Shown one piece after another: positions 1 through 12,607 of a stretch of DNA of 12,607 nt; position 1 is the stretch's first letter; each line of letters begins with the position of its first letter. A model generated the notes under the pieces. The model did no database searches, was not told the DNA's origin, and saw only the letters and a program-made list of their open reading frames with translations. The position numbers and the translations under genes were made by a program. The stretch spans positions 1 through 12,607 of the forward strand of contig JAJKFJ010024683.1 in assembly GCA_027382625.1 (NCBI GenBank), read 5' to 3'. The stretch comes from Tetmemena sp. SeJ-2015. Taxonomy: Eukaryota; Ciliophora; Spirotrichea; Sporadotrichida; Oxytrichidae.

Positions 1-77
1 AACTTTAGCGATTGAGTTATTATTATGAGCCATGAATAATTATTGATTTCAGTAATAATAAATTGTGAGGTTATAAA

Positions 78-2144
78 ATGTCTGCCAAGAATTTTATGAA
101 GGATGCCATGAATACGGGAGTGAACACCTTCTCTCGAAACTAGTCTAACATCCTGAATCTGCAGCACTCTGCCTTCGACATCTCTAATTAGCTCTACGCC
201 TTCATTTCATAAAAGGAGAAAGATTATTTTGTCATGATAATGAATTGTTGTGCATTTCATGGATGAACTCGTTTGAATTCATATCAGATGAGAGAAGTGA
301 TTCAAACGCAGTGGAGGGTAGTTGCCCCGCCGTGCAAGTTAATCATCCCATAGCATTCCATGACTACAATCATATAAATGGCATGGGCTATGGCCTAAAG
401 GCCCTCTCTAGCATCAAACAAGGAGAGGTCATTCAATCATTCATGCTTTTTATTTACAATATGCAAACTAGTTATCTATTAACACATTTATAGTTCGAAT
501 ATTCATCATAGATTATCTAGTTGAAAACTGCTCTGGGTATCACTCCAGACTCGATCTTGGGCAAATCATTCGGCTCTCAATAAATAAAAGCACTCTAGCA
601 AGATGAAAGCAAGCCTCAGGATGAGAAGATTTTAATCTGCATTTTTAAATTGATGCGGACGATTTGCTGGATACTTAACTCTTTCTATAACTGAATTATT
701 TATTGTCTTTCATTACTTTAATAAACTCAGTTCTCTTACTGAACGCGTGGCCACTCATTTCTTCCCACATCCACAGTAGCACGTCCACAAAAGCAGATTA
801 TAGCAGCAACTCATGCTCACACAGAAGATAATAATGCTGGAGAGGGTATCTGAAAATAGCATGAGAACTTCAGTGTAGAATCTCATTAACTCTTATCTCG
901 ATTTAATGCCCAGACAAGACATGACAAGCATCCTCTTCTGGAATAAAAATGTCCAAGTAGAGATAGACTCAGAGATTTAATTAGTATGTGTGTTACATGT
1001 TCTTGATATATATGAGATATTGAGATCGCAAATGATGGAGACCAACAACTTCTACTAAAGGATTTATCATCAGCTCACCAAGGGCGATGAGCAGTCACCT
1101 TATTCATAAAAAAAATTTAAACTGTACTCTTTAATCTTACCCTATAAGGATAAGAATCCCCTCTCTATTGACGAATTCATGTGGGCCTTCTAAACTGCAT
1201 CCTCTCGGCATCTCGTATTCGATAACCAGGGTTCAAGTGAGTCACCACTCTTGATGCTTCTCCCACTTGTCGACATGATAAATCACTCGCCCACTTTCGA
1301 TCCAAACGTCGTTGTGCTGCCCTATGAGGATAAGGTGCGAGAAGAGAGCTTTGTTTTAGTGAGGGCGATAAAAGACATTCAAAAGGATGAGTAGCTTTAC
1401 ATGTCCTATGGCGCTCTTAGCAACAGTCATCTTGTGCAAAAGTACGGCTTCACCTTAGAAAATAATCCACATAACGTCATCTCTCAAGCTTACCCTCTGG
1501 GCAGCTACTGCAGATTCGCACTTCAAGAGGAGGGCTTAAAGCATAGTCTCTCACAGAAGCTTAAGCTTCCATTCATAGATCCTGAGCTAAATAATAGTTC
1601 ATAGCCGATAAGTGTATATTAGAGGTAGGGAAACTGAATATGAGCATGTGGTCGAATAGATTCAACCAGGAGGTGTTCAAGGCTTTGAGACTGCATTTCC
1701 TGAACAGTCAAATGATCATGGACAGAGGCGGTACTGACGCCTTCACCAGAATCTGTGGAGATTTCAGCAAGCCTATCGACAGGAATAATGAGGAGCTAAA
1801 TATATAAGTGTGAACAGATTTCCTCATTTTTTGAATTCTAGCTTTGCTATGAATTCCTTCTAGAGTCAATCGACAGGAGCTACTCTCAGCTGAAGCCCAT
1901 AGACTTCTATCAAGAAAAGATAGAGGCTATCAAGCACTCCCTCAAAATAGACCAAACAGGAGTTTAATCAGAAAGCCCTATTATAATCAAAGACTCTATC
2001 ACGAATCTGCCAGCCATAGACTAATACAACTTGCTAAATGCCTACAGACTTCAGATAGATGAGAGCAAGATACTCAAAGCTAACTTGGAGTTCCTCAAAA
2101 AGAATAAGTCAGAGGCGGTCAAGAGACTCATTCAGTAATCATGA
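78..2144 (+). CDS. SET-domain protein lysine methyltransferase (Rubisco-LSMT/SETD3-like), IES-interrupted
   Basis: Predicted S-adenosylmethionine-dependent lysine methyltransferase of the plant Rubisco LSMT/SETD3/SETD6 type; substrate unknown. After removing IESs and introns it is about 560 residues. The SET start motif GMGYGLKALSSIKQGEVI lies at 381-433, a YLDLMP..D...ILFW block at about 886-945, and the catalytic-core motif MINHS at about 1276-1290. The closing SET motif MSYGALSNSHLVQKYGF is at 1401-1451. A substrate-binding C-terminal domain follows (LEVGKLNMSMWSNRFNQEV, then NLLNAYRLQIDES) and ends at TGA 2142-2144. ATG 78 is chosen because its frame runs straight into the first IES junction. 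GT-AG introns are placed at 846-873 (28 nt), 984-1016 (33 nt, in frame, less sure) and 1808-1841 (34 nt). In-frame TAA/TAG are Gln. Two IES junctions shift frame and are strongly supported (203/253 and 1572/1598); three in-frame junctions are tentative. Family assignment is confident; mitochondrial or other targeting cannot be judged. Confidence 0.85.
203..260. other. IES with 8-bp pointer CATTTCAT (copies 203-210 and 253-260)
   Basis: The direct repeat CATTTCAT flanks 42 bp of insert (211-252). Deleting 50 bp joins ...LYAF to ISWMNSF and brings the reading frame from the ATG at 78 into the SET-domain frame. Unremoved, the first frame stops at a TGA at 261-263. There are no GT-AG ends, so it is not a spliceosomal intron. 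Confidence 0.85.
431..514. other. Probable IES inside the SET domain start (tentative pointer ATT)
   Basis: The protein leaves homology after GEVI and resumes at LKTALGITPDS (521 onward) in the same frame. Removing one ATT copy plus the insert 434-511 gives GEVIIQLKTALGITPDS, which suits the family. The pointer is only 3 bp. A 93-nt GT-AG intron at 428-520 is an alternative, so the exact ends are uncertain. Confidence 0.45.
655..747. other. Probable IES (pointer GCG 655/745 or ACG 659/743)
   Basis: An AT-rich insert with an in-frame TGA at about 692 separates ...ICIFKLMR from GHSFLPTSTV. Both flanks are in the same frame. Two short direct repeats, GCG (655-657/745-747) and ACG (659-661/743-745), each give an open join and differ by two residues. 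An insert is clear; its exact ends are not. Confidence 0.55.
1101..1145. other. Possible IES, in frame, pointer TAT
   Basis: This is a 39-bp AT-rich stretch (1104-1142) between two TAT copies. Deletion would be in frame and give ...EQSPYKDKNPLSIDEFMW, a tidier match to SETD proteins than the read-through residues. There is no TGA inside, so it could also be coding. Confidence 0.35.
1572..1604. other. IES with 7-bp pointer TTCATAG (copies 1572-1578 and 1598-1604)
   Basis: A 19-bp insert (1579-1597) lies between two perfect TTCATAG copies. Removing 26 bp shifts frame and yields KLPFIADKCILEVGKLNMS, which continues the substrate-binding domain. Without excision the upstream frame ends at a TGA at 1635-1637. 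It is the shortest well-supported IES in the window. Confidence 0.85.
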
Positions 2145-2222
2145 ATAAGAAGGTGAAGGCTCCTTCTAAGTATCGAGGTCTGCGGTATTTTAATTTAATT
2201 ACTCTCAATCAATTAAAAAGAG

Positions 2223-4332
2223 ATGAGTTGTTAATACCCATTTTCTTAGTTATTTAAATTCACTTAAACTAACAAGAATCCATGCGGGTAGGTTGGTATC
2301 GCTTTGTTGAAAGCTTGGGGTTAACCTCTTGGCTACTACAAAGGAGTTGTGAATGAAGCCACTCCCTTGAGAGGAGGGAAGGAAGAGGTGGAACTATTTT
2401 TTTGTAAAGAGAGACTAAGCTTTCAAGAATCAGGACTATGAGCTCTAGCAATAATATATTTATTGTGGTCAAAGATCTTAAAATAGTGTTCGAGGTAAGG
2501 ACTATTAATTTATCTTTTCACTCTCTTATAATTGTAACGCCGCTATTTGTAGATCGGAAACGACATCCTGAAACTCAAAAGGAAATAATTAAAATTTATC
2601 CTTTACCTTATTAAATCACTCATATTTTATATGCTAGCAGCAAAGAGACTAGTACGATGCTTTATATGAGACCACTCGTTATGAGGACATGATAATGATG
2701 GCAAGGCCTTCAACTGCTCAACTTAGAGCTGTCCAATTGGCTGAAGAGGAAGACGCAAGAAGGAGGATGATGCTTTGTAAGATATAAATCCTTGCTTGTT
2801 TACCTTGAGTTTAGAGAGGCAGAGAGAACTGGAAGATGAGGAAGCGAGAGCAAGGCGCATGATGGAAATGGACGAGCAGGAAAGGCTTCGCCGCCTTAAG
2901 GAGGAGGAAGAAGAGAGACGCAGAAAACAGGCTGAAGATGCCGAGAGGAGAAAGAATGCAGCCGATAACAGAAAGTCCAAAGTGAAGGAGACCTTTACTA
3001 ATTAGAAAGGCAAAGACACTGACATCAACATTAAGGGAGATCCACTTGAGTCTAATGATGGAGATATTGATCTGGAGCCTTACCTGAATCCCTTACTGTC
3101 TGCAGCTGGAGGTAACGTGGAGAAGCTTGGATTGGAAGCTCTCAGGAGAGCCCTATCAGATGGAACGCTTCTAGTGTGTGGAGTCAAACTCTGGACAGCC
3201 TTGCACTCTGATCAATGGAGACACAGAGAGAGTTCAGTTCAGGCCTTTTTGGAATATTTAAACTTCTATTTTGAAATAAATAAATCTAATTGACAATGTA
3301 ATATCTTTAGGCTCCCCTGAAGAAAAAGTACATAGGAAAGACGAAGCGTTTGTTCCTGGCTGCATGCGATGTGGCAACTATAGCTTGCAGAGATAAACTG
3401 CTATAGATTTACTATGTGGGACTTAAGATCCTGCAGTCTGCTATGGCCCCTCCCATCTGCGGAGATGACATCCCTCCCAAGATAATCAACAACGCTGTCA
3501 AGCCCTTCATAATAAAAAATATTTGCATTTATTCATATTTTCTATCCTTCATTACTCTTCTGATCGACAAGATAAAAATTATATTATAATTTAGATAAAT
3601 TTGATGTTAAAGATAAGTGAGTTGAACTATCGTGCACGTGATGTGTCTCTGCATGCGCTTATCTCTCTGTTCCGCCACCCTGCAGTGGATATCAGATAGT
3701 TGATCGAAGGTATAATGGATATTACTGAGAAGGGACCCTCCCCTGACAAGGTGCAGTGGCGTATCGTGCTTGCTAGACTGGAAATACTGCTGCACATAGT
3801 CTAGGAGTTTAGAATTAATGACAAAGCTTGGGACTGGAGAGTTGTCTTCTAGAAGTTAACAATTAAAGTTTGATTATTGATAGGCGTGTTAAAGTTAGTT
3901 GCTCCTTCATTCTTCAATCACAACCCAGATGTGAGACTGATTGCGATTGAGGTGACATTGGAGATGTACAAGATCACGGGGGCAGAGCTAAAACGCATGG
4001 TCCAAGAGATAGACGGCCTTAAGCCTAACCTACTCCAGACTATTACATCAAATATAAAGCTAAAAGTATTTAAAGTAATTGCTATTACAAAGAGGATGAA
4101 AATAATTGATGAGGGTGGTGGTACTAAGTACGTCTTGGGATCTTAAGATCCAGAGGGAGGCATAGGCACGGCCAAGGAAAATGTAATTGGTGGTTTGGAA
4201 TAACTTCAAAAAGTTTATTCTTTAAATTCATAGTGAGAATAAGTGGCTGAGACGCATGAGTGGAGTGAATAAAGTCCCACTGGCGGAAGCAAGAACAAAA
4301 CTAATCAGAACTTTAATCAGTAGCCCTAGTGA
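2223..4332 (+). CDS. CEP104/FAP256-like ciliary tip TOG-domain protein, 5' part missing
   Basis: CEP104/FAP256 proteins sit at ciliary and flagellar tips and bind tubulin through a TOG domain. The frame from about 2223 carries NPCGQVGIALLKAWGQPLG, like the end of the N-terminal jelly-roll domain. Next come KNQDYELQQ and an EIGNDILKLKRDQYDALYE stretch resembling the family's repeated DYD-type helices. A strongly charged coiled coil follows (2815-2990), then a TOG-like region: SDQWRHRESSVQAFLEYL, VATIACRDKLLQIYYVGLK, ELNYRARDVSLHALISLF and NPDVRLIAIEVTLEMY. The end is polar (NQNFNQQPQ) with TGA 4330-4332. Introns are 2388-2409 (22 nt, tentative), 2495-2552 and 2777-2814. Seven IESs break the gene. 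Roughly the first 100 or more residues and the family's C-terminal zinc-finger region are not seen. One frame step near 2449-2465 is unexplained. The start given is only the open end of the frame, not a claimed initiator. Confidence 0.75.
2578..2645. other. IES with pointer AAAG (2578-2581 and 2642-2645)
   Basis: A 60-bp AT-rich insert (2582-2641) has no GT start. Excision of 64 bp shifts frame and joins ILKLKR to DQYDALYETTRYEDM. The pointer is short, but the frame logic and base composition agree. Confidence 0.7.
3253..3304. other. IES with pointer AATAT (3253-3257 and 3300-3304)
   Basis: A 42-bp insert (3258-3299) contains a TGA at 3291-3293. Removing 47 bp shifts frame and gives SSVQAFLEYLQAPLKKKY within the TOG-like region. 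An alternative AGGC repeat (3241/3309) also restores frame but would delete FLEYL, which fits the helix less well. Confidence 0.75.
3504..3552. other. IES with 7-bp pointer CCTTCAT (3504-3510 and 3546-3552)
   Basis: A 35-bp AT-rich insert (3511-3545) lies between perfect CCTTCAT copies. Excision of 42 bp is in frame and gives NAVKPFITLLIDK, removing an implausible Ile/Tyr/Phe-rich run. Confidence 0.8.
3569..3616. other. IES with 7-bp pointer AAGATAA (3569-3575 and 3610-3616)
   Basis: A 34-bp insert (3576-3609) carries an in-frame TGA. Removing 41 bp shifts frame and joins LLIDK to ISELNYRARDVSLHAL. Only about 16 bp of MDS separates this IES from the previous one. Confidence 0.85.
3853..3897. 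other. IES with 6-bp pointer AAGTTA (3853-3858 and 3892-3897)
   Basis: A 33-bp insert (3859-3891) has a TGA at 3871-3873 in the upstream frame. Excision of 39 bp gives DWRVVFQKLVAPSFFNH, a continuous helical-repeat sequence. A longer overlapping repeat TTAAAGTT (3863/3889) would break the frame. Confidence 0.8.
4040..4089. other. IES with 8-bp pointer CTATTACA (4040-4047 and 4082-4089)
   Basis: A 34-bp AT-rich insert (4048-4081) lies between perfect 8-bp repeats. The 42-bp excision is in frame and gives LLQTITKRMKIIDEGGG, removing SNIKLKVFKVIAIT. The insert has no TGA, so the support is the repeat length and base composition. Confidence 0.75.
4198..4242. other. IES with 6-bp pointer GAATAA (4198-4203 and 4237-4242)
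   Basis: A 33-bp insert (4204-4236) ends in an in-frame TGA at 4234-4236. Removing 39 bp extends the protein by a polar tail, GLEQVAETHEWSEQSPTGG, to a new TGA at 4330-4332. Confidence 0.7.
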
Positions 4333-4401
4333 TCAGCACTATAAATTTAGGTTCAATTCAAGTCTAACTTTAAAATTAATCATTCACAAATTTGAAGAAT
4401 A

Positions 4402-5160
4402 TCAACTCTAGAGTGCATATGCTATTTAAATGTAGAGCGTAGCGAGGCAAATCTTTCTGTAGCTGAGTGAGTAGCAGATTCCACTGACTACTGCCTTCAC
4501 GTCGGGGTCTATCTCTATCCTAGAAAACTCATCTGCACTCATAGAGTCTCCTTCCCTTTCTTCACTTTCGTTATCTGAGTTAACCACCTAGAATCCCTCA
4601 CTTCGAAGTGCATCTTTCAAACCTTTTTCTCCAATCACGTAAACCTTCTCACCTTAGGTAGAACTAAGATTTTAGGTTTCTTTAACATCAGCATGCTCAG
4701 TAAAAAGCTTCTTCAGATAATTGGCAGTAGCATAGGCACTCGTATATATCTAGGAGGATGGTATGAGTTTATCCAAATCGCCTTAAAATTTAGCAAGTTT
4801 CTCATTTATTACTTGCTCTGCTGTCTTTGAAGAATTGTTAGTGACCAGGAAGATATTATAAAAGCTCATATAGGAAAATATTAAACTTATTAGCATATAT
4901 TTTAAGATCTTCTTAGTGTGAGAGTATTCAGGATTAGTCAAAATTGAACTGATAGCCTGGAGGGCATTAGGAATCTCTGTGTCTCCACACCACAGCACTC
5001 CATCACAGTCAAACAAGAAGTAATCGTACTTGGCAACCAAGTATTCAAAGCTAGCACTAAACAAAGATAATCAGATTATACGGTTAAATTCAAACTAGAA
5101 ATCTACCTACTACGGAAGTTGCTCTCCACTTTAGACCACTATCTCTTCTTTTGCTTCCAT
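4402..5160 (-). CDS. HAD-superfamily phosphatase (phosphoglycolate/p-nitrophenyl phosphatase-like), C-terminus missing
   Basis: Predicted small-molecule phosphatase using an aspartyl-phosphate intermediate. Motif I is YFLFDCDGVLW (about 5000-4970), with nucleophile and acid/base aspartates. Motif II is FLVTNNSSK after IES removal. A C2-type cap follows with IPSSQIYTSAYATANYLK, KVYVIGEKGLKDALRSEGF and DPDVKAVVSG, then SYRKICLATLYIQ. ATG 5160-5158 opens MEAKEEIVV; a 57-nt GT-AG intron (5057-5113) joins QLP to ASFEYLVAKYDY. One IES lies at 4850-4908. After ATLYIQ the frame becomes unlike the family and stops at a TGA at 4404-4402. About 90 family residues, including the conserved lysine and the GDxxxTD motif IV, are absent; the next DNA is the converging CEP104-like gene. 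The family call is firm. Whether the gene is completed elsewhere or is broken is open. Confidence 0.85.
4850..4908. other. IES in HAD phosphatase gene, pointer AAGAT (4850-4854 and 4904-4908)
   Basis: A 49-bp AT-rich insert (4855-4903). On the minus strand, excision of 54 bp joins HTKKI directly to FLVTNNSSK, restoring HAD motif II spacing and removing a foreign Tyr/Ile/Leu/Phe-rich run. It is in frame with no GT-AG ends. Confidence 0.85.
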
Positions 5161-5291
5161 TAAACTCTTTCTCAATTTAAAATTAATGATTGACAATTAA
5201 AGAGATGCATAATTTTAAGCGATTAGTTAAGTGATCTCATTATAATAATAATTAGTGCTATAAGTTAATAATAAGAATATATCGCTTCAAT
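5161..5291. promoter_or_regulatory. Divergent intergenic region between HAD phosphatase and small membrane protein genes
   Basis: This is 131 bp of strongly AT-rich DNA between two start codons on opposite strands, so it presumably holds both promoters and leaders. No specific element can be named. A chromosome breakage or telomere-addition point could also lie here. Confidence 0.4.
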
Positions 5292-5576
5292 ATGGATCAA
5301 AGTCCCTTCAAGTTCGACAGCGCCAACCCCCGCTTCGTGACCAACGCTTCTGAAAACAAAACCGTCTACTACGCAGCTGGAGCCCTCTTCCTCCTCTCCA
5401 TGCGCTTCTACCACAAGAACATCTTCCGCGTGAACGAGAGATCCCTCGACTTCGCTGCCTTCACAGTTGGATCCCTCTTCTCCTCATACGCCATCGCTAA
5501 CTTCGCCCTCGAGAGCCCCAACAACCAAGCTGCTCTTTTGAACAACTCACTCGAGAACCAGGTTGCCAAGCACTGA
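5292..5576 (+). CDS. Small hypothetical membrane protein, 94 residues
   Basis: A complete frame from ATG 5292 to TGA 5574-5576 with no in-frame TAA/TAG, no intron and no IES. It is markedly GC-richer than its surroundings. Two hydrophobic stretches, TVYYAAGALFLLSM (about residues 24-37) and FAAFTVGSLFSSYAIANFA (about 54-72), suggest two membrane helices joined by a basic loop. The polar tail is Asn-rich (NNQAALLNNSLEN). The clean codon usage suggests a well-expressed gene. I do not recognise the family; a small organellar or vesicle membrane protein is possible but unsupported. Confidence 0.8.
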   Translation: MDQSPFKFDSANPRFVTNASENKTVYYAAGALFLLSMRFYHKNIFRVNERSLDFAAFTVGSLFSSYAIANFALESPNNQAALLNNSLENQVAKH

Positions 5577-5661
5577 GCAAGCAGCATTCTCTGACAGGGA
5601 GACATGCTACTTAGGCTTAGTAAAAAATATATCTCTAATATGCTTACTATAAGGAGGCTTG

Positions 5662-5973
5662 ATGATAAATGACAGTTAGAACTCGAGCCAGAAGATTGAT
5701 GGAGATGCGAGAGAGTTTCAGTGGTATCTTATTCTCGGGAGACGATCGAGCACTGCCTCACCTCTTCAGGCTCTTATCTTTAAGTTAAACTTAACTCAAT
5801 TCCTTCTCTTCTGTCTCTCCTTAAGCCTAGTTAATAATCCTCACTTTTTTCTACTTCTCTCTTAGGCTCTATCTATATTAATTATATATAGTTAACTCCT
5901 CTTCAACTTAAGTAAGGATCTAACTCGAATTTATTAAGACAGATTCGATTATCTATTTTCCAGAATCAACTGA
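5662..5973 (+). CDS. Uncertain ORF, 103 codons under the UGA-only stop code
   Basis: The ORF runs from ATG 5662 to TGA 5971-5973, with TAA/TAG read as Gln. The first third (SQKIDGDAREFQWYLILG) has coding-like composition. The rest turns Leu/Phe/Tyr-rich and AT-rich, as expected for non-coding or IES DNA. It could be a first exon or MDS of an unrecognised gene running into an IES, or chance. No family is recognised. Confidence 0.3.
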
Positions 5974-6109
5974 GATTATTTATCTGGATTAGCTTATATG
6001 AAATTTTAGGATTTTAAACATTTGAACCATTAAACTGAGCTTCAAAATAAACTTTCTTGCTAAATAACTCTCCTTCGTTACAAGGGAGAGTTTCTAATTA
6101 GATTTTCAA
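5974..6109. other. AT-rich intergenic stretch
   Basis: Together with the weak ORF upstream, this fills the 533 bp between the small membrane protein gene and the end of the minus-strand Gln/Asn-rich gene. I see no RNA gene, telomere repeat or convincing coding sequence here. Confidence 0.5.
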
Positions 6110-7754
6110 TCAGTAGATATCTTCACAGTCACTCATGCTCTCTATCTCCTCAGTAGGTTACTATCTGCCGTTTGCATTTGGGTCATTTCATCATTAGAAT
6201 ACACAAATGCAATATAAGTAATTTCCCAGAGCAGCATTTCTATCTCTTAGTCTCTTTCGACCACCGCCACTTTTTGGAGTGTGAGGCTCGTGATCGACAT
6301 CACCTGAGAGCTTGGCAATTTAATTAAAGGAGTCTAAGGCCATTTTGTTAAGAGGCTTTTGAGTATTATGATGAGGGAAGCTAGCCCCACACATGGGTCT
6401 AGCTCTACCATAGATCTAAGGAGTCAAGTTTGGATTATCCTTTTGATTATTAGGAGGAGACTACTGTTTTTTATTAGGATCTAGCACGTTTGTGAAATAT
6501 GCAGTTGCTTAAACGTTTGAATTTATTGGCTGGAGCATTTGAGCAGGCTGCTCCGAAGGATGATGGCGATGGAGATTTCCTGAAAGTGGATGCTTGGGAT
6601 AATTCTTGTGATGGTTGTTACTTATTACATTTGGAGAAACCTAGCTTATATTAAGAAAGCGTTAAAATTGAGATAGATACAAGCTGTGAATAACTTTCTT
6701 TTCCTCATTCTTAGTTTCGAGTTTCTTCGTATTAAGTTACGAAGGCTAAGTAGTGACTTGCAATCTGCTCTAGTTCTATGAGTTAATGTTGCTAGCTCTT
6801 TGCCTCTCAAACATGTTTCTTTAGTGTAGGTTGTTGGTAGGCGAGGGTATCTTTGAACCAATTTGCATCTTCTACTTGGGGCTTAAGCTATGTTTGAACT
6901 CACTTTTTTAAATGCGGGTGCCTTTCATCTTGCTAGCTGTATTATCTAATTTGGTATGCTGACTCTAAGAGTGAATGCGGCCCTTTTTGAAACTGCTTGT
7001 CTACTATTCCTAGCCAGACATAGATCCTCTAAGGTTAACCTAGGCATGAGCAGCAGCTTTGGCTGACATGTCATGTTGCCTCAAGGCAATCTTGAGGGCT
7101 ATTAAATCCATTTCAGCTAAACTGGCACCTGTGAAGCCACCTAGACTCTACTAATTGATCTTATGGATTTGATTAGTAGGGGATGTGACACCTCCCTTGG
7201 GAAGTGCTCCTAACTTATCTTCTGAAGTCAACTTCTCCCCAGAAGACTCTTGCTTCATAGCTCTTGAAATATCCCTACGCCTGGAATCTCTAAAGTCTAT
7301 ACTTTGATTGATAGCGTTGATGTAGGAGCTACTGTTCTACTGATTGGCTTTGCTCTCTATGAAATCCTCATCTTGAACATAGTCGCTATCAAGATCATCA
7401 GAATTTAGTTCATTAGAGGAGCTGAGAGGACTCTTATTATCAGGCAAGCTGGTTGAAGATTTTTAAAAAGAGGAATCAGAACGAGCAGGAGAATTGTCCT
7501 CATCTTAGCCAAATTAAGGATGCCTGCTAGCTATATGTCTTAGAGGAGGAGGGTTTAGGTGAATGCGTCTCTCCACAGTCTTGGTCTTCGAATTGTCAAA
7601 GCTTTATTCATGGTTATGATAAGTGGTCTACTGCTACTATTGCTACTTGGGCTAAGTCAAAGAATTTAAGGGGTTAGTGCTTGTTGCAAAGAAACTGTTT
7701 TACGAATGTGGCCTACCCTTGTTGATTGAGCTACTTTGAGTAGAAAATATCCAT
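6110..7754 (-). CDS. Long Gln/Asn/Ser-rich low-complexity protein, function unknown
   Basis: About 507 residues after processing. ATG 7754-7752 opens MDIFYSKQLNQQG; a 22-nt GT-AG intron (7695-7716) joins it to FFATSTNPLNSLTQPK. The frame then stays open to TGA 6112-6110. It contains a poly-Gln run encoded mostly by TAG/TAA/CAA (about 7634-7655), acidic Ser/Asp segments (SSNELNSDDLDSDYVQDED) and an Arg-rich patch (FRDSRRRDISRAMKQ). A short helical block (LAEMDLIALKIALRQHDMSA, about 7050-7110) follows, then long basic Gln/Asn/Pro/His-rich stretches. The C-terminal KSGGGRKRLRDR patch resembles a nuclear localisation signal, and the protein ends SMSDCEDIY. Mostly disordered; a regulatory or nucleic-acid-associated role is a guess from composition. 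Two IESs, at 6174-6239 and 6643-6685. It is divergent from the CAP gene. Confidence 0.7.
6174..6239. other. IES near the C-terminus of the Gln/Asn-rich gene, pointer GCATTT (6174-6179 and 6234-6239)
   Basis: A 54-bp insert (6180-6233). On the minus strand, unexcised reading ends in a hydrophobic tail (LYCICVF) and TGA. Excision of 60 bp gives RDRNANGRQQQPTEEIESMS and a natural polar end at TGA 6112-6110. Confidence 0.8.
6643..6685. other. Probable IES, pointer AGCT (6643-6646 and 6682-6685)
   Basis: A 35-bp AT-rich insert (6647-6681) within a polar region. The in-frame 39-bp excision removes LYLSQFQRFLNIS and gives KKVIHSQVSPNVISNNHH. Support is composition plus a short pointer; there is no internal TGA. 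Confidence 0.6.
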
Positions 7755-7907
7755 CGCTCAAATCATCAAACCCTCTTCATCATATTCCGATCTGCTATTA
7801 CAAATGCGATGTCAAGATATATCTGAATAGTACTTGCTGTAGCTTTTTGATTGATTTTTATAGTAATATATCTTAATTTCAACACAGCGTTAAATCTCTT
7901 AAAAGAT
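7755..7907. promoter_or_regulatory. Divergent intergenic region between Gln/Asn-rich gene and CAP gene
   Basis: 153 bp, AT-rich, between two opposite start codons, presumably holding both promoters. No specific element is recognised. Confidence 0.4.
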
Positions 7908-9217
7908 ATGGAATCCAGACTTGAGCAACTACTCAACCGATTTGAATCACTAGTCAATAGACTTGAGGGAGCCGGCGGTGCCACTAGTGGCTAAGCTTCC
8001 TCATCAACTGGAAGTGCCCCAAAATCTACTTCATTGCCAAAATTGGTGAAGGACTTCGATAATGAAATGAACTCTAAGATCAAAACACTCGAGGATGCGA
8101 CTGCCTCTTTCGGATAAGAAGTCGTCTCAACCATTGTAAGCTGCTTTGCTAATTCTAGTAGTTCTCTTTGTCTCATTCTTCTAATTTAGACCAAGGAATA
8201 TGTGAAGATCCTTCTGAGCCAGAGAGACATCTTGATCACCATGAGTTAGAGTGCAAGACCTGCTAATTTCCAATTCCTGATTGCCCCTGTCTCTAAGGCC
8301 AAGAATGATGTGAAGGGTCTTAAAAATAAGGATCTCAAGCTCTAGAATCATGTCTAGACTGTGGCTGATGGCTTCGACCTCTTTGCCTGGTTTGCTCAGG
8401 TACGAACTTTCCTCTCTGCTAATGAAATATGTAGTCTGACTTGAAGGATGTAATCGAGGACTAGCTGAAGCAGATTGACTTTTATGGATTCAAGGTGTTG
8501 CAGCTGAAGTAAGACCCAGACACTGCTTGGTACAAGGCTTACAAGGAAGTGGCTAAGACTTTTGTGGACTTCTTAGTTCAAAACGCAGACGATGTGGTCC
8601 AGTGGAAGGGACAGGGCAACGCTGAAGACGTGTTCGCCTCCACTTTTGGTAGCTCAGAGCAAGTTTTCAGAGGTGATACAGGCGCAACTTCTGTTAAGAA
8701 GCAAGTCGAAGAGGTGAAGGCCCAAGCTGGCAACCTCTTTGCAGATATTACAAGTGGCAAGACCATGAACTAGAATAAAATTATCATGAATAATCCATTT
8801 TACAAGACTTCTCTTTTAAATCTAATAAAGTTTTAGAATTTGGTACATGTGGAGAAGAATGCACACAAGAAGGACGGTCCACTACAGCCCATTGAAAAGA
8901 AGTAGGTTGCTCCAAGACAACCAGCAGCTGGAGCAAAGGTCGAAGTAGTCAAGGACCCACACTTAAATATTAAATGCCCTATTTTCATAATTATAAGACC
9001 CAAAGACTGAATTCAAAATGAACACCTACTACATTTATCAATCATTAAGAGTAATTTTATTATGAATTAAATTAGAATTTAATTGTAAGAAGATGCTTAT
9101 AGTTTAATGCTTTACTCTTAGGAGCACTATGGAAAGGAGGTTTTGAAGTATTCAGGCGACCAACTAGAATCCAACTATGCTTTCGCTATGATCAAGTGCA
9201 AGGACACCACTTTCTCA
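7908..9217 (+). CDS. Adenylyl cyclase-associated protein (CAP/Srv2), actin regulator, C-terminal end not found
   Basis: CAP binds actin monomers and, with cofilin, recycles them; it acts in the cytoplasm. ATG 7908 opens MESRLEQLLNRFESLVNRLE, the family's N-terminal oligomerising helix. The helical CAP_N domain follows: KEYVKILLSQRDILITMSQS, QSARPANFQFLIAPV, NHVQTVADGFDLFAWFAQ, DFYGFKVLQLKQDPDTAWYK and VDFLVQNADDVVQWKG. Then come NLFADITSGKTMNQ and, after IES removal, NLVHVEKNAHKKDGPLQP, matching the LKHV-type WH2-like motif. A Pro-rich linker and the start of the beta-helical actin-binding domain (NYAFAMIKCKDTTFS) follow. Introns are GT-AG at 8136-8189, 8400-8434 and 9051-9121. TAA/TAG encode Gln in conserved columns. 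After TTFS (9217) homology is lost and the frame stops at TGA 9311-9313; roughly 100 family residues are missing or unrecognised. Confidence 0.92.
8771..8839. other. IES in CAP gene, pointer TAGAAT (8771-8776 and 8834-8839)
   Basis: A 57-bp AT-rich insert (8777-8833). The in-frame 63-bp excision joins SGKTMNQN to LVHVEKNAHKKDG, restoring the conserved WH2-like motif of CAP. The repeat itself encodes Gln-Asn at both copies. Confidence 0.85.
8954..9002. other. IES in CAP gene, pointer GACCCA (8954-8959 and 8997-9002)
   Basis: A 37-bp insert (8960-8996). The 43-bp excision shifts frame and joins VEVVKDP to KTEFKMNTYYIYQ; without it the frame stops at a TGA shortly after. Confidence 0.85.
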
Positions 9218-9322
9218 AAAATAAAACTGAAGCCCTTTTTTACTCTAATTTCTTATAATTTACTCCTTTATAAATATTATAACTTTATCCTTTTCAGTTT
9301 ATCCTTTATTTGAGAGTAAGTT

Positions 9323-9583
9323 ATGTTTAAATTTGAAAATGTGTTCCTTATAAACGACATCGAGATAAATATAATAAATGTACCATAAAATAGCTGGGTG
9401 TCATCATTTTTAGTTGCAAATATGAAATTTGGTTAGAATAAAGACCCGAGCTATTCTTATGATTTTAACATAGTCTAAAGTTACAATCATATGCTGCAGA
9501 AGCTCAAGAATCATACTTAAAATATTTTTATCACTTATTTTAGAGCTTTAATACTTCCCTAGCTCGAGAAGGATTCAAGATGA
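9323..9583 (+). CDS. Uncertain ORF, 86 codons; possible CAP C-terminal fragment
   Basis: Open under UGA-only stops from ATG 9323 to TGA 9581-9583. Its start, KFENVFLINDIEIN, loosely resembles the CAP beta-helix segment written FENV...VEIIN in relatives, and it lies just after the point where CAP homology ends. The following residues (NSWVSSFLVANMKFGQNKDP) do not match CAP. The codons ATAAATATAATAAAT at about 9365-9379 contain a tandem repeat that could be a tiny insert. Either a degraded or unrecognised MDS of CAP, or chance. Confidence 0.3.
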
Positions 9584-10113
9584 GCGAGTTAAAAATATTT
9601 TCAACAATAAAATATACTTAAGATTTATAAAAATAGCTACTTTAAATTAAATATAGGATCATATCCAGTGAAATTTTTGAATTTATATTTTAAAAAATAT
9701 TCTTACAAATTTTTTATCGAGTACTCTCCGAATTGACATTAAGTTAAGCCATCTTCTGAAAATCAGGACTTCCAATTTAAGATGGCGATTTTAATTAAAT
9801 ACCAATTTTATGAGGTATTCGAAATTATTGCTTGCCCTCAAAGTCACTCGGCCTCAAATCTTTATCTTCTTAAAAAATAATATAAAAAGTTTAGATGAAA
9901 TAATTTAATTTATTCTAATGTAAGTAACTGATGACATAAAGAATTAATTAATCTTCTGAATCAGAGATCCGAAAATTGGTAGTAAATGTTTTTATTTTAT
10001 CTTCTTGTTACTCTAGTTATTTCTCCATAGTTGCACGCTATACCACGTCGGTACATTCTCTCTCTGATTTATATTTTTATTCTAATTCTTTGACATTTAG
10101 TCTCACTTTTTAT
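9584..10113. other. AT-rich non-coding stretch with a hairpin
   Basis: No gene is recognised. It contains an 8-bp inverted repeat (9748-9755/9779-9786) and a short UGA-only ORF from ATG 9782 that is too weak to call. No RNA gene or telomere repeat is seen. Confidence 0.5.
9748..9786. repeat. Inverted repeat GCCATCTT / AAGATGGC with 23-bp loop
   Basis: Arms 9748-9755 and 9779-9786 are perfect reverse complements. The arms are GC-richer than their surroundings. It could be a transcription end, a small structured RNA, or chance. Confidence 0.5.
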
Positions 10114-11116
10114 TCAAAGTAATAAAAAAAATATATTCAAATGAACTTTTTGTACCCTGGAAATGTATTGGTATTTTTAGTTAAACTCTATAAATACTTG
10201 CTTGATTAATTTAACAAAAAGATGAATTTAAGATTTGCGAAGTAATTATTTTTTGATGATGCCATTCACGTCTTTAAAGAGTTGCGAGCCGTAGTGGTTA
10301 AAGAATGCGTGTCTTTTAACTTGCTGAAAAAATAAATGAGTATAAGCTATCATCATTCAATTAAATGGAAGTTCTATTTTATACTGTACTGTGGGCCTCT
10401 TTTTTAAGCTGAAAGAGAGCATATGTATTAGCAAATCGATTAGGTAATCCGTCGTCACCTTGAACTGATCAGGAATTTTACTCCCTTATTGCTTTTAAAC
10501 CAAACTTTATACACATACACACAATTAAATATAGATCCATATATATGTGTGTGTGTGTGTGTGTGTGTATGTATATATATTAAACTTCGTATTCTAGAAA
10601 TAAGGTAACCTGGTTATCTGTATTCAGCTTTGCTATAGCATCCACCCTCGTACGGAAACTCTTTGAATCTCAACAAAAAAAGCAACACGCCAAGTTGAAA
10701 TATGTCTATCTTTGTTAAATCCTCAGCAGAAAATTGCTTGACTTAACTTGGATGGTGCTGCAGTAAAATCTGTTCAGGAGCCATGAAATTTAATTCGTAA
10801 ATAAAAAAAATGGGATACAAAGTTTAGGTATCTAAATTAATAGTTCCAGCCTTGAAGTTGAACTTGCCTTTTTGAATGTCTTCTATGGTTTGAGATATAC
10901 CGAAGTCCCCCAGCTTAGTCAGTAAAGGGATTCGAGCTGTCATGAGGTTGGCCGAGTAATCTTTATATTTCTGAAAAAATACGTTGCCGGGCTTGATGTC
11001 CAAATGGAGAATCTTTAATATATTCTCTAAGAGATTTTTAAAAGAATCCCACATGAGTGCATGAACTCAAGAGATAGCAAGAGTTAACGCGCTATAACAA
11101 AGATCAGCCCTTCACT
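10114..11116 (-). CDS. Protein kinase catalytic domain (Ser/Thr-type), IES-interrupted, N-lobe unresolved
   Basis: After IES removal the minus strand encodes ARQLLLSLEFMHSCGIL, then the catalytic loop HLDIKPGNV (HRD position reads HLD, with catalytic Asp, Lys and Asn present). The Mg-binding segment LGDFGIS and activation-segment end AGTINFMAPEQI follow. Subdomain IX is KIDIFQLGVLLFL, then EFPYEGG, then DYLIDLLIHMLSF and KKRPTVQQVKRHAFF, the subdomain XI signature. The tail runs NHYGSQLFKDVNGII into an AT-rich end at TGA 10116-10114. Four inserts interrupt it. The glycine loop, ATP-binding lysine, helix C and hinge are not convincingly found upstream. A GTGAGT...CAG intron candidate lies at 11115-11204, and a frame reading LEKCEFLCLQYYSSF nearby could be a helix C/beta4 piece. 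The specific kinase family is not assignable. Confidence 0.8.
10324..10386. other. IES or intron in kinase gene, pointer CTG (10324-10326 and 10384-10386)
   Basis: A 57-bp insert (10327-10383) contains a minus-strand TGA. Excision of 60 bp between CAG copies (minus strand) gives KRPTVQQVKRHAFF, with the usual spacing between RPT and H. A 66-nt GTACAG...CAG intron would give RPTQVKRHAFF, two residues short. The nature of the insert is therefore open. Confidence 0.6.
10502..10587. other. IES made largely of GT/AC and AT dinucleotide repeats, pointer AAACTT (10502-10507 and 10582-10587)
   Basis: The 74-bp insert (10508-10581) contains (GT)11 at 10547-10568, an ACACATACACACA tract at 10511-10523 and AT runs. 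Removal of 80 bp shifts frame and gives YLISRIRSLVQKQQGSKIP, linking subdomains IX and X of the kinase. The AC-rich and GT-rich parts are near complements, so the insert can fold on itself. Confidence 0.85.
10547..10568 (+). repeat. (GT)11 microsatellite
   Basis: Eleven GT units flanked by AT-rich alternating sequence, entirely inside the kinase-gene IES. Length variation here would be harmless to the protein if the IES is removed. Confidence 0.95.
10786..10838. other. IES in kinase gene, pointer AAATT (10786-10790 and 10834-10838)
   Basis: A 43-bp insert (10791-10833) with a poly-A/T core. Excision of 48 bp turns GTINLDT... into GTINFMAPEQ, the invariant end of the kinase activation segment. 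No GT-AG ends coincide with the required join. Confidence 0.9.
11008..11048. other. IES in kinase gene, pointer AGAATC (11008-11013 and 11043-11048)
   Basis: A 29-bp insert (11014-11042). Excision of 35 bp shifts frame and joins FMHSCGIL to HLDIKPGN across the catalytic loop. It falls exactly where kinases need continuous sequence. Confidence 0.9.
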
Positions 11117-11257
11117 GAAAGGAAATAGAGTTTAATAATTCTTGATTTATCCTATATCATTTAAAATGTGAAGCTTGAATAGTACTAGAGACATAAGAAC
11201 TCACATTTCTCTAGCTTTAAATACGATTTTTAATCATAATGAAGTAAGAAATCAACT

Positions 11258-11932
11258 TCAGAACAGAATCGATATAGCTTGACATAGTATCATCATTTAC
11301 TTTTTAATTATCACCAACTATGAAATTATCAGCATAGAGATAATTCTACTTGCTATTGATTTTTTAAAAAAATTTAATAGAGTATATCTCTAAAGATATC
11401 TTAAATTCTAAAGCTAAATAAAAAAAAAAATTTTACTTTACTTTACTTTACTTTACTTTACTTTACTTTACTAAAGCTTAATAAATAAAGAAGGACGCAT
11501 AAATTTCCCAAATCTTAAACATATTCTTCTCTTTAATAAAATTATAATTGCAATATCGAATTACATCAAGGCTTAACTTCTAGCTTCATCAACTTAACTA
11601 AGTTACTTGTTTTTATATCCAATTTTCGTTTGTTCTAAGGACACGTTGACTCGCTTAAAGTAGTTGCCCATAATTTCTTTATCTTCACTGCTTAGCTCAT
11701 AAATCTCCAGGAAGCCTTTCTCATTTATAGAGCCCTTGAAGCGTTTCCTTAGCTGTTCGTAAATATTTTTCTCATTCTTAAGATTTTTTATGTTCTAAGA
11801 CAGCCCTGTCTCCTTCTAGAGAGGAAGTTTAAATAAGATATTGTCGTGCCCTTATAGCTCTACCAAAATATAATATATAAGTTCTTAAATGTGGATAATA
11901 AGGGGGTGCGAAAGGGAATGGAAAATGGAAAC
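11258..11932 (-). CDS. Unrecognised ORF (224 codons, UGA-only stops), first half coding-like
   Basis: Open from just after a TGA at 11935-11933 to TGA 11260-11258. The part from about 11890 to 11555 looks coding: YYILVELQGHDNILFKLPLQ, NIYEQLRKRF, NEKGFLEIYELSSEDKEIMG, NYFKRVNVSLEQTKIGYKN. Composition is charged with helix-like patterning. Below about 11550 it becomes Ile/Phe-rich and runs through the CTTTA array and a poly-A tract, so it has probably left coding sequence or entered an IES. No initiator ATG is evident, so it is likely an internal segment. It may belong to the 5' part of the kinase gene downstream on the same strand, or to a separate gene. I do not recognise a family. Confidence 0.45.
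11421..11472 (+). repeat. Poly-A tract followed by CTTTA tandem array
   Basis: A run of A (about 11420-11430), TTTTA, then seven perfect CTTTA units (11436-11470). It lies in AT-rich DNA between the coding-like segment and the kinase gene. Confidence 0.95.
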
Positions 11933-12607
11933 TCAGAAAGTGCACAAATTATAGCCAGATAGTGGGCTTAATCGCTGAGTCAAGGGGTAAAATTGGTCGT
12001 GTTGTATTTATCTAGAGGCCAAGGTAGCAACAAATAGTTTGGGCTCTAGTCTGAAAACGAATGTGTGTTGGTGGATTCTTGTATTTTATAGATACTCTAA
12101 TATTTACAATGGGAGAAATATGCAAGCTACAAAAATTCCAATTCTAAAAATAAAAAAGAAATATGATAAATTCAAAGTGACTGGCTGGTCATAGTTCGGC
12201 AAAACTAATTTTAAACTGCAAAGCCTCCTCCCTATTCTTCTATTTAGTGATCTTACTCTGGCTAATTGTAGCAAAAGCTTTTAAGTAAAGGGATGGACTT
12301 GGAGGGATGCAACTCTATTTAACTTCACAGGCTAAAACAGTTATATAATAATACCACTTTCAATGAGAAAAAAATATAATTAAATATATTTCCATTCCTT
12401 AATTTTAAATTTACTTCTACCAACAATCAGCATTTTATAAAAGCATAATTTATCTTTGAAAATATCCTCTATTAAATGCAGACCCTCCCTTTGCGTGGAT
12501 TTATATATTTTATTCTTCTTTTTTTTAATTATTATTATTTTGCTAAAATTCTTCGTGTATATTATCTCCTTCTATTTAATTTTCTATAGCTTAATTTTAT
12601 AAATAAC
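11933..12607. other. Unassigned right end; GC-richer patch 11890-12080 possibly coding
   Basis: From about 11890 to 12080 base composition resembles the MDSs of this window, and several frames on both strands lack TGA. A plus frame reads GMENGNSESAQIIARQWAQS; a minus frame reads RFQTRAQTICCYLGL. I cannot decide which is real. Beyond about 12330 the DNA is very AT-rich and nothing is recognised. Confidence 0.35.

Follow-up and report, generated by a model that had tools for sequence, protein, structure and literature searches.

Pointer-flanked inserts and nested, scrambled genes in probable Tetmemena micronuclear DNA

The stretch of DNA analyzed here (hereafter, the window) is an entire 12,607-bp contig (C4709) within a searched assembly of 146 Mb and 5,213 contigs, and we conclude with strong confidence that it derives from the micronuclear (germline) genome of a hypotrich ciliate, likely Tetmemena sp., and that its genes are interrupted by AT-rich inserts flanked by short direct repeats (pointers) and are partly scrambled across both strands. 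That the window belongs to a hypotrich (spirotrich) micronuclear genome follows from the use of TAA and TAG as glutamine codons, non-TA pointers of 3–8 nt, C4A4 telomeres, the scrambling of genes and the occurrence of a published 15-nt pointer. An earlier note, made from the window alone, had read it as ciliate germline DNA with pointer-flanked internal eliminated sequences (IESs), and each of these features (the telomeres being on other contigs, the pointers varied and non-TA) supports that reading. The inserts that it described are real; it missed the scrambling of four genes, did not tell introns from IESs, and probably misplaced one insert.

Pointer-flanked inserts in five genes

Insert borders were obtained with a spliced aligner that worked from the genetic code, a constant penalty for skipped DNA and a protein sequence, and that was blind to repeats. 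The homologs came from a protein search: P0001 for a gene encoding cyclase-associated protein (CAP; 69% identical), P0006 and P0007 (the latter from Stylonychia lemnae) for a SET-domain gene, and P0012–P0014 for a CEP104-like gene. The clearest single IES (203..260, plus strand) consists of 50 nt between two copies of CATTTCAT: both homologs gave identical borders without repeat information, and its excision shifts the frame and restores YAF-ISWMNSFEF.

In all, 19 pointer-flanked inserts are listed in five genes (SET, CEP104-like, HAD phosphatase, CAP and kinase), and excising each while keeping one pointer copy yields continuous proteins. Eleven were placed by protein-only alignment to at least one homolog, and all of their borders fall on perfect repeats (marked "alignment" below); four were placed by hand on a nearby in-frame repeat, and four (one in the HAD gene, three in the kinase gene) by frame and motif. 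Across three test runs, repeats of at least 5 nt occurred at 6 of 17 junctions, two of which are introns, as against none of 140 when the same inserts were shuffled and placed randomly (placements less than 40 nt apart were skipped, leaving that number).

78..2144, plus: SET-domain gene with seven likely IESs and one uncertain interruption, by spliced alignment to P0006 and P0007
204-253: IES, pointer CATTTCAT; alignment, both homologs
431-511: IES, ATT; alignment
632-674: IES, TTAA; alignment, P0006 only, poorly conserved stretch
690-737: IES, ACTGAA; by hand on the nearest in-frame repeat, poorly conserved stretch
972-1013: IES, GAGAT; alignment, P0007 only
1097-1138: IES, ACC; alignment, P0006 only
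about 1572-1626: interruption with uncertain borders
1794-1839: IES, AGCT; by hand on the nearest in-frame repeat
2263..4236 (3' end uncertain), plus: plus-strand segments of the CEP104-like gene (TOG domain), by spliced alignment
2495-2552 and 2777-2814: GT-AG introns
3255-3301: IES, AATAT; alignment, P0013
3506-3547: IES, CCTTCAT; alignment, P0012
3569-3609: IES, AAGATAA; alignment, P0012
3853-3891: IES, AAGTTA; by hand
4042-4083: IES, CTATTACA; alignment, P0012
4426..5070, minus: N-terminal part of a HAD-type phosphatase gene, glycerol-3-phosphate/phosphoglycolate phosphatase-like (Pfam Hydrolase_6; PDB match 7po7)
4850-4903: IES between copies of AAGAT; frame and motif
7908..9213, plus: N-terminal three quarters of the CAP gene (CAP_N), by spliced alignment to P0001
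8136-8189 and 8400-8434: GT-AG introns
8771-8833: IES, TAGAAT; alignment
8954-8996: IES, GACCCA; alignment to P0001, exactly on the repeat
9035-9117: probable IES, TTA; by hand, the alternative being a GT-AG intron at about 9052-9121
10357..11200 (both ends approximate), minus: catalytic part of a protein-kinase gene, by frame and motif, without homolog-guided alignment
10502-10581: IES, AAACTT
10786-10833: IES, AAATT
11008-11042: IES, AGAATC

The inserts are 35–83 nt long with 78% AT, as against 57% in the coding, macronuclear-destined segments (MDSs), and nine of them shift the frame. All 19 pointers differ, with lengths of 3–8 nt, and TA does not stand at both borders. In being short and AT-rich, with non-TA pointers of which one copy is kept, the inserts resemble conventional hypotrich IESs, and nothing unusual was seen in them.

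Domain scores point in the same direction. The CEP104-like_TOG match reaches 87.8 bits after the IESs are removed and the segments joined, compared with 17.0 and 29.8 for the two raw pieces; the Pfam Pkinase match goes from 37.2 bits in the raw open reading frame (ORF) to 85.6 over a longer span in the joined protein, where removing the three inserts leaves one continuous frame; and the Hydrolase_6 match goes from 68.3 to 74.0 bits.

All six repeat pairs cited in the earlier note are present: CATTTCAT at 203/253, TTCATAG at 1572/1598, AAGATAA at 3569/3610, GACCCA at 8954/8997, AAACTT at 10502/10582 and AGAATC at 11008/11043. As inserts, the first, third and fourth coincide exactly with the output of the aligner, and the last two are borne out by frame and Pkinase score. 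The TTCATAG pair is probably a chance one: excision between its copies restores the frame, yet a 47-nt deletion over 1580-1626 scores higher with both homologs (885.5 and 693.5, versus 866.0 and 676.5). Where the note had counted six interrupted genes, we find supported inserts in five, and none could be supported in a small gene at 5292-5576 or in the ORF at 6191-7762.

Several other candidates were set aside. A hand-placed AGGC junction near 3240 was dropped because homolog P0013 gave AATAT at about 3253; a plain IES bounded by AAAG at 2578/2642 was dropped because the homologs show a scrambled junction at 2571-2648; and further deletions that the P0013 alignment proposed in the 5' part of the CEP104-like gene and after 4066 were not kept.

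Scrambled genes and a probable match to a published locus

The whole window has a second copy, with 96% identity, at approximately 102,807-115,339 of another contig, C3534. Four genes of the window (CEP104-like, HAD phosphatase, CAP and the gene at 6191-7762) are scrambled, in that they continue on the opposite strand of C3534, 3.8–23 kb away, through ten shared pointers of 7–15 nt:

2263..2274, plus: CTTAAACTAACA; partner C3534:91705-91716 (minus), N-terminal MDSs of the CEP104-like gene
2382..2392, plus: GAAGAGGTGGA; partner C3534:101411-101421 (minus)
2406..2412, plus: AAAGAGA; partner C3534:101281-101287 (minus), a frequent 7-mer, positioned by protein frame
2440..2446, plus: GAGCTCT; partner C3534:101245-101251 (minus), non-unique, placed by protein frame
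2468..2476, plus: GTCAAAGAT; partner C3534:101225-101233 (minus)
2571..2582, plus: AAACTCAAAAGG; partner C3534:101167-101178 (minus)
2636..2648, plus: AGCAGCAAAGAGA; partner C3534:101029-101041 (minus)
4426..4437, minus: CTCTACATTTAA; partner C3534:100487-100498 (plus), C-terminal half of the phosphatase
7724..7738, minus: CAAAGTAGCTCAATC, 15 nt; partner C3534:100433-100447 (plus)
9205..9213, plus: CACCACTTT; partner C3534:88648-88656 (minus), C-terminal MDSs of CAP

Eight of these pointers, all but AAAGAGA and GAGCTCT, are confined to their junction pair in the 40-kb portion of C3534 that was examined. In the CEP104-like gene, most of the gaps at 2392-2648 are junctions of the scrambled gene rather than plain inserts, and tblastn located the pieces absent there at 101.0–101.4 kb of C3534, minus strand; the N-terminus lies at about 92 kb, also on the minus strand, and is reached through CTTAAACTAACA. 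The three longest exact matches between this region of the window and that of C3534 (13, 12 and 11 nt) each fall at a join that the protein requires, and when seven plus- and minus-strand segments are assembled in pointer order and three introns are removed, they form one frame of 338 codons with no stop.

The frame of CAP in the window ceases to match P0001 near residue 345 of 464, and a genome search with P0001 found a minus-strand match to residues 399-433 at 88 kb of C3534, with the remainder around that block; this end of the gene was read on C3534 only by frameshift-tolerant alignment. The glutamine-rich gene at 6191..7738 (minus strand; ORF 6191-7762) has an uninterrupted frame in the window and resumes at C3534:100,447 (plus strand) via CAAAGTAGCTCAATC, the frame being open across the join; its ORF gave no Pfam match. 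Between the nested layers lies the small gene at 5292..5576 (plus strand), a single open frame with no supported IES and, over the 5289-5573 scanned, no Pfam match.

The order of pieces along C3534 (in kb) is as follows:

Left: CAP C-terminus at 88 (minus); CEP104-like N-terminus at 92 (minus); 5' part of the 6191-7762 gene to 100.45 (plus)
Centre: HAD C-terminal half from 100.49 (plus); CEP104-like middle at 101.0-101.4 (minus); SET at 102.9-105.0 (plus)
Right: rest of CEP104-like at 105.1-107 (plus); HAD N-terminal half at 107.2-107.9 (minus); small gene
Far right: 6191-7762 gene at about 109-110.5 (minus); CAP N-terminal part at 110.7-112 (plus)

The genes are thus nested around the unscrambled SET gene, with CAP outermost, followed by the 6191-7762 gene, HAD and CEP104-like. 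The exception is the CEP104-like N-terminal block at 92 kb, which is interleaved with HAD and the 6191-7762 gene, being positioned external to both. A possible origin for this arrangement is a single large inverted duplication whose arms have since lost complementary pieces, such that one fold-back would align nearly all of the scrambled pointer pairs. Because all four scrambled genes have their missing pieces on the other strand, and the order of these around SET is mirrored (the CEP104-like N-terminal block excepted), this origin suggests itself, but we regard it as unlikely. When the arms were compared for residual similarity (blastn, C3534 80,000-102,806 against 102,807-119,999), the best matches had an E-value of about 4e-4, were AT-rich and were not at mirrored gene positions.

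The pointer CAAAGTAGCTCAATC ties the window to a known locus. In the legend to their Fig. 6, Feng et al. (2022, PMC9797194) give this sequence as the pointer of the second Tetmemena "Russian doll" locus, on contig TMEMEN_MIC_22886. In the 146-Mb assembly it has three copies (C3534:100433, plus; C3534:110521, minus; window 7724, minus), and the reversed control has none. Given this letter-for-letter identity and the confinement of the sequence to this locus, the window is very likely Tetmemena micronuclear DNA and an allelic copy of the published locus TMEMEN_MIC_22886, and so very probably already known. Both loci (Fig. 6B) have the identical 15-nt sequence as a long pointer bridging nested loci in a hypotrich germline; they differ in that the published text has it bridging two scrambled loci and one unscrambled, whereas here it bridges two scrambled genes (HAD and CEP104-like) and two unscrambled (SET and the small gene). 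The comparison draws on that legend and text, and the legend names no genes at the locus; six words of the kind of CAP, CEP104-like, HAD phosphatase and SET, looked for in the main text of PMC9797194, do not occur there. The locus OXYTRI_MIC_69233 (ctg7180000069233) of Oxytricha trifallax in Braun et al. (2018, PMC5940158) is likewise nested and scrambled, and such loci are described there with as many as five layers; in that species, going by the PMC9797194 legend, the pointer is shifted (TAAGTTCAAAGTAG, 8 nt in common).

Between the window and its second copy, substitutions amount to 7.9% in IESs, 10.4% in introns (182 columns), 1.8% in MDSs and 2.5% elsewhere, excluding a 339-column stretch of SET (20.4%) that is garbled in C3534. 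Some of this divergence may be sequencing error, so we use it only as support, and single-base differences between the copies were not taken as loss of frame. The garbled part of the SET gene on C3534 (locus L004, approximately 103,360-103,750) has flanks that match well and is probably unpolished long-read sequence.

The copies also differ by 24 nt in a TG microsatellite (10540-10575) inside a kinase insert, and a 52-nt stretch at 11890-11941, upstream of the kinase gene, is missing from C3534, through insertion, deletion or assembly difference. Between CAP and the kinase gene, 9215-10250 is very AT-rich (about 25–30% GC) with blocks conserved between both copies, and may hold segments of another gene; the four pieces of it scanned gave no Pfam match.

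Germline character and competing explanations

With TAA and TAG read as glutamine (code 6), the conserved frames of the window stay open; under the standard code, just four stop-to-stop frames of at least 100 amino acids exist. On other contigs of the assembly, 10 of 30 excerpted telomere-repeat loci carry exactly 20 nt of C4A4 repeat at the terminus, evidence that rests on contig ends, since the reversed C4A4 pattern reads the same backwards and is no usable control. Bases 1-127 of the window are an exact reverse-complement match to one end of contig C4992, a pattern of k=127 graph assembly, and the Tetmemena assembly, where PMC9797194 describes it, used SPAdes at k=127 plus PacBio, compatible with this overlap and with the long-read-like errors seen here.

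Elsewhere in the assembly, nine loci on several contigs (L038, L045, L046, L048, L050, L051, L052, L055 and L059) contain internal C4A4 repeats followed by a common sequence (ACCCAAGGTGAGAGA... and variants), as would be expected of telomere-bearing (TBE) transposon ends. One contig, C739 (L067, L068), whose cap is exactly 20 nt of telomere, diverges from the long contig C2939 (L069, L070) after 9.7 kb, and the point of divergence is a 0.6-kb stretch whose ends are inverted repeats of 73–76 nt.

Several observations weigh against the germline interpretation or its details. Bare repeats of at least 6 nt spaced 25–90 nt apart number 359 in the window and 241–305 in five block shuffles, barely above chance; as repeats by themselves are near chance, it is homology that carries the case for the inserts. 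The homologs conflict at some borders: P0006 and P0007 give different results where SET is weakly conserved (where P0007 gave GAGAT at 972/1014, P0006 gave a 117-nt deletion over 954-1070), and P0013 and P0012 disagree in the CEP104-like gene, where the P0012 alignment puts no repeat at the AATAT junction and the P0013 alignment has a single 83-nt deletion in place of the two inserts beginning at 3506 and 3569. Several borders depend on 3-nt repeats or on our choice of repeat (690, 1794, 3853 and 9035). The scrambled partners were located outside the window contig, on C3534, and the window's own haplotype presumably shares them; C3534 itself shows homopolymer insertions, long-read-like errors and garbled SET stretches, and the part of the joined HAD frame that comes from it has a further interruption, which contains a stop. 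Searches with two pieces of DNA and one protein matched only the two germline-type copies and no macronuclear copy; the contigs encountered all exceed 10.9 kb, so that gene-sized chromosomes probably lie outside the searched set. Finally, a control within the assembly, telomere-capped C739 against C2939, is colinear for 9.7 kb, where no indel exceeds 6 nt and no excision is seen, a result that is uninformative for the window.

Could the inserts be spliceosomal introns of an ordinary genome, macronuclear or from another eukaryote? Four interruptions are in fact GT-AG introns, the one at 9035-9117 can also be read so, and the divergence of introns between the copies is as rapid as that of IESs. 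However, no GT-AG placement within its own repeat is possible for any of the 19 inserts, and introns give no account of protein pieces on opposite strands joined by repeats of 7–15 nt, making this explanation very improbable. Alternatively, the split genes might stem from misassembly or be decayed pseudogene copies, with the short inserts being ordinary indels, for which the errors in C3534 and the isolation of the window as a 12.6-kb contig would speak. We consider this extremely improbable: there is no redundancy among the complementary pieces, which rebuild conserved proteins via exact pointers, the arrangement on the window side is identical in both contigs over 12.6 kb, and a pointer agrees with an independently published map. 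A germline of the Paramecium or Tetrahymena type, whose TA-bounded inserts are excised by a transposase, would share the short AT-rich inserts and the TAA/TAG code, but the pointers here are varied 3–8-mers with no fixed TA, and the C4A4 telomeres and the scrambling likewise speak against it; such a germline is next to impossible here.

Probable rearrangement and significance

In the developing macronucleus of hypotrichs, IESs are removed with one pointer kept, scrambled segments are inverted or reordered with guidance from RNA of the old macronucleus, and telomeres are added. Judging from the anatomy of the window, its AT-rich inserts would be excised, and its scrambled segments inverted and re-joined at one pointer copy, during development of the somatic nucleus; parental RNA templates may guide both steps, as in Oxytricha. 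Passages in PMC9797194 and PMC5940158 agree on rearrangement in hypotrichs.

Although no new class of system is opened by this locus, a germline genome proved recognizable from raw sequence alone, and the follow-up has drawn a map of the rearrangements from it and linked this map to a published locus. Protein names (CAP, CEP104-like, HAD phosphatase and SET) are now attached to its nested layers, and the comparison points to a second haplotype of the locus, in which the divergence of IESs can be set against that of MDSs.

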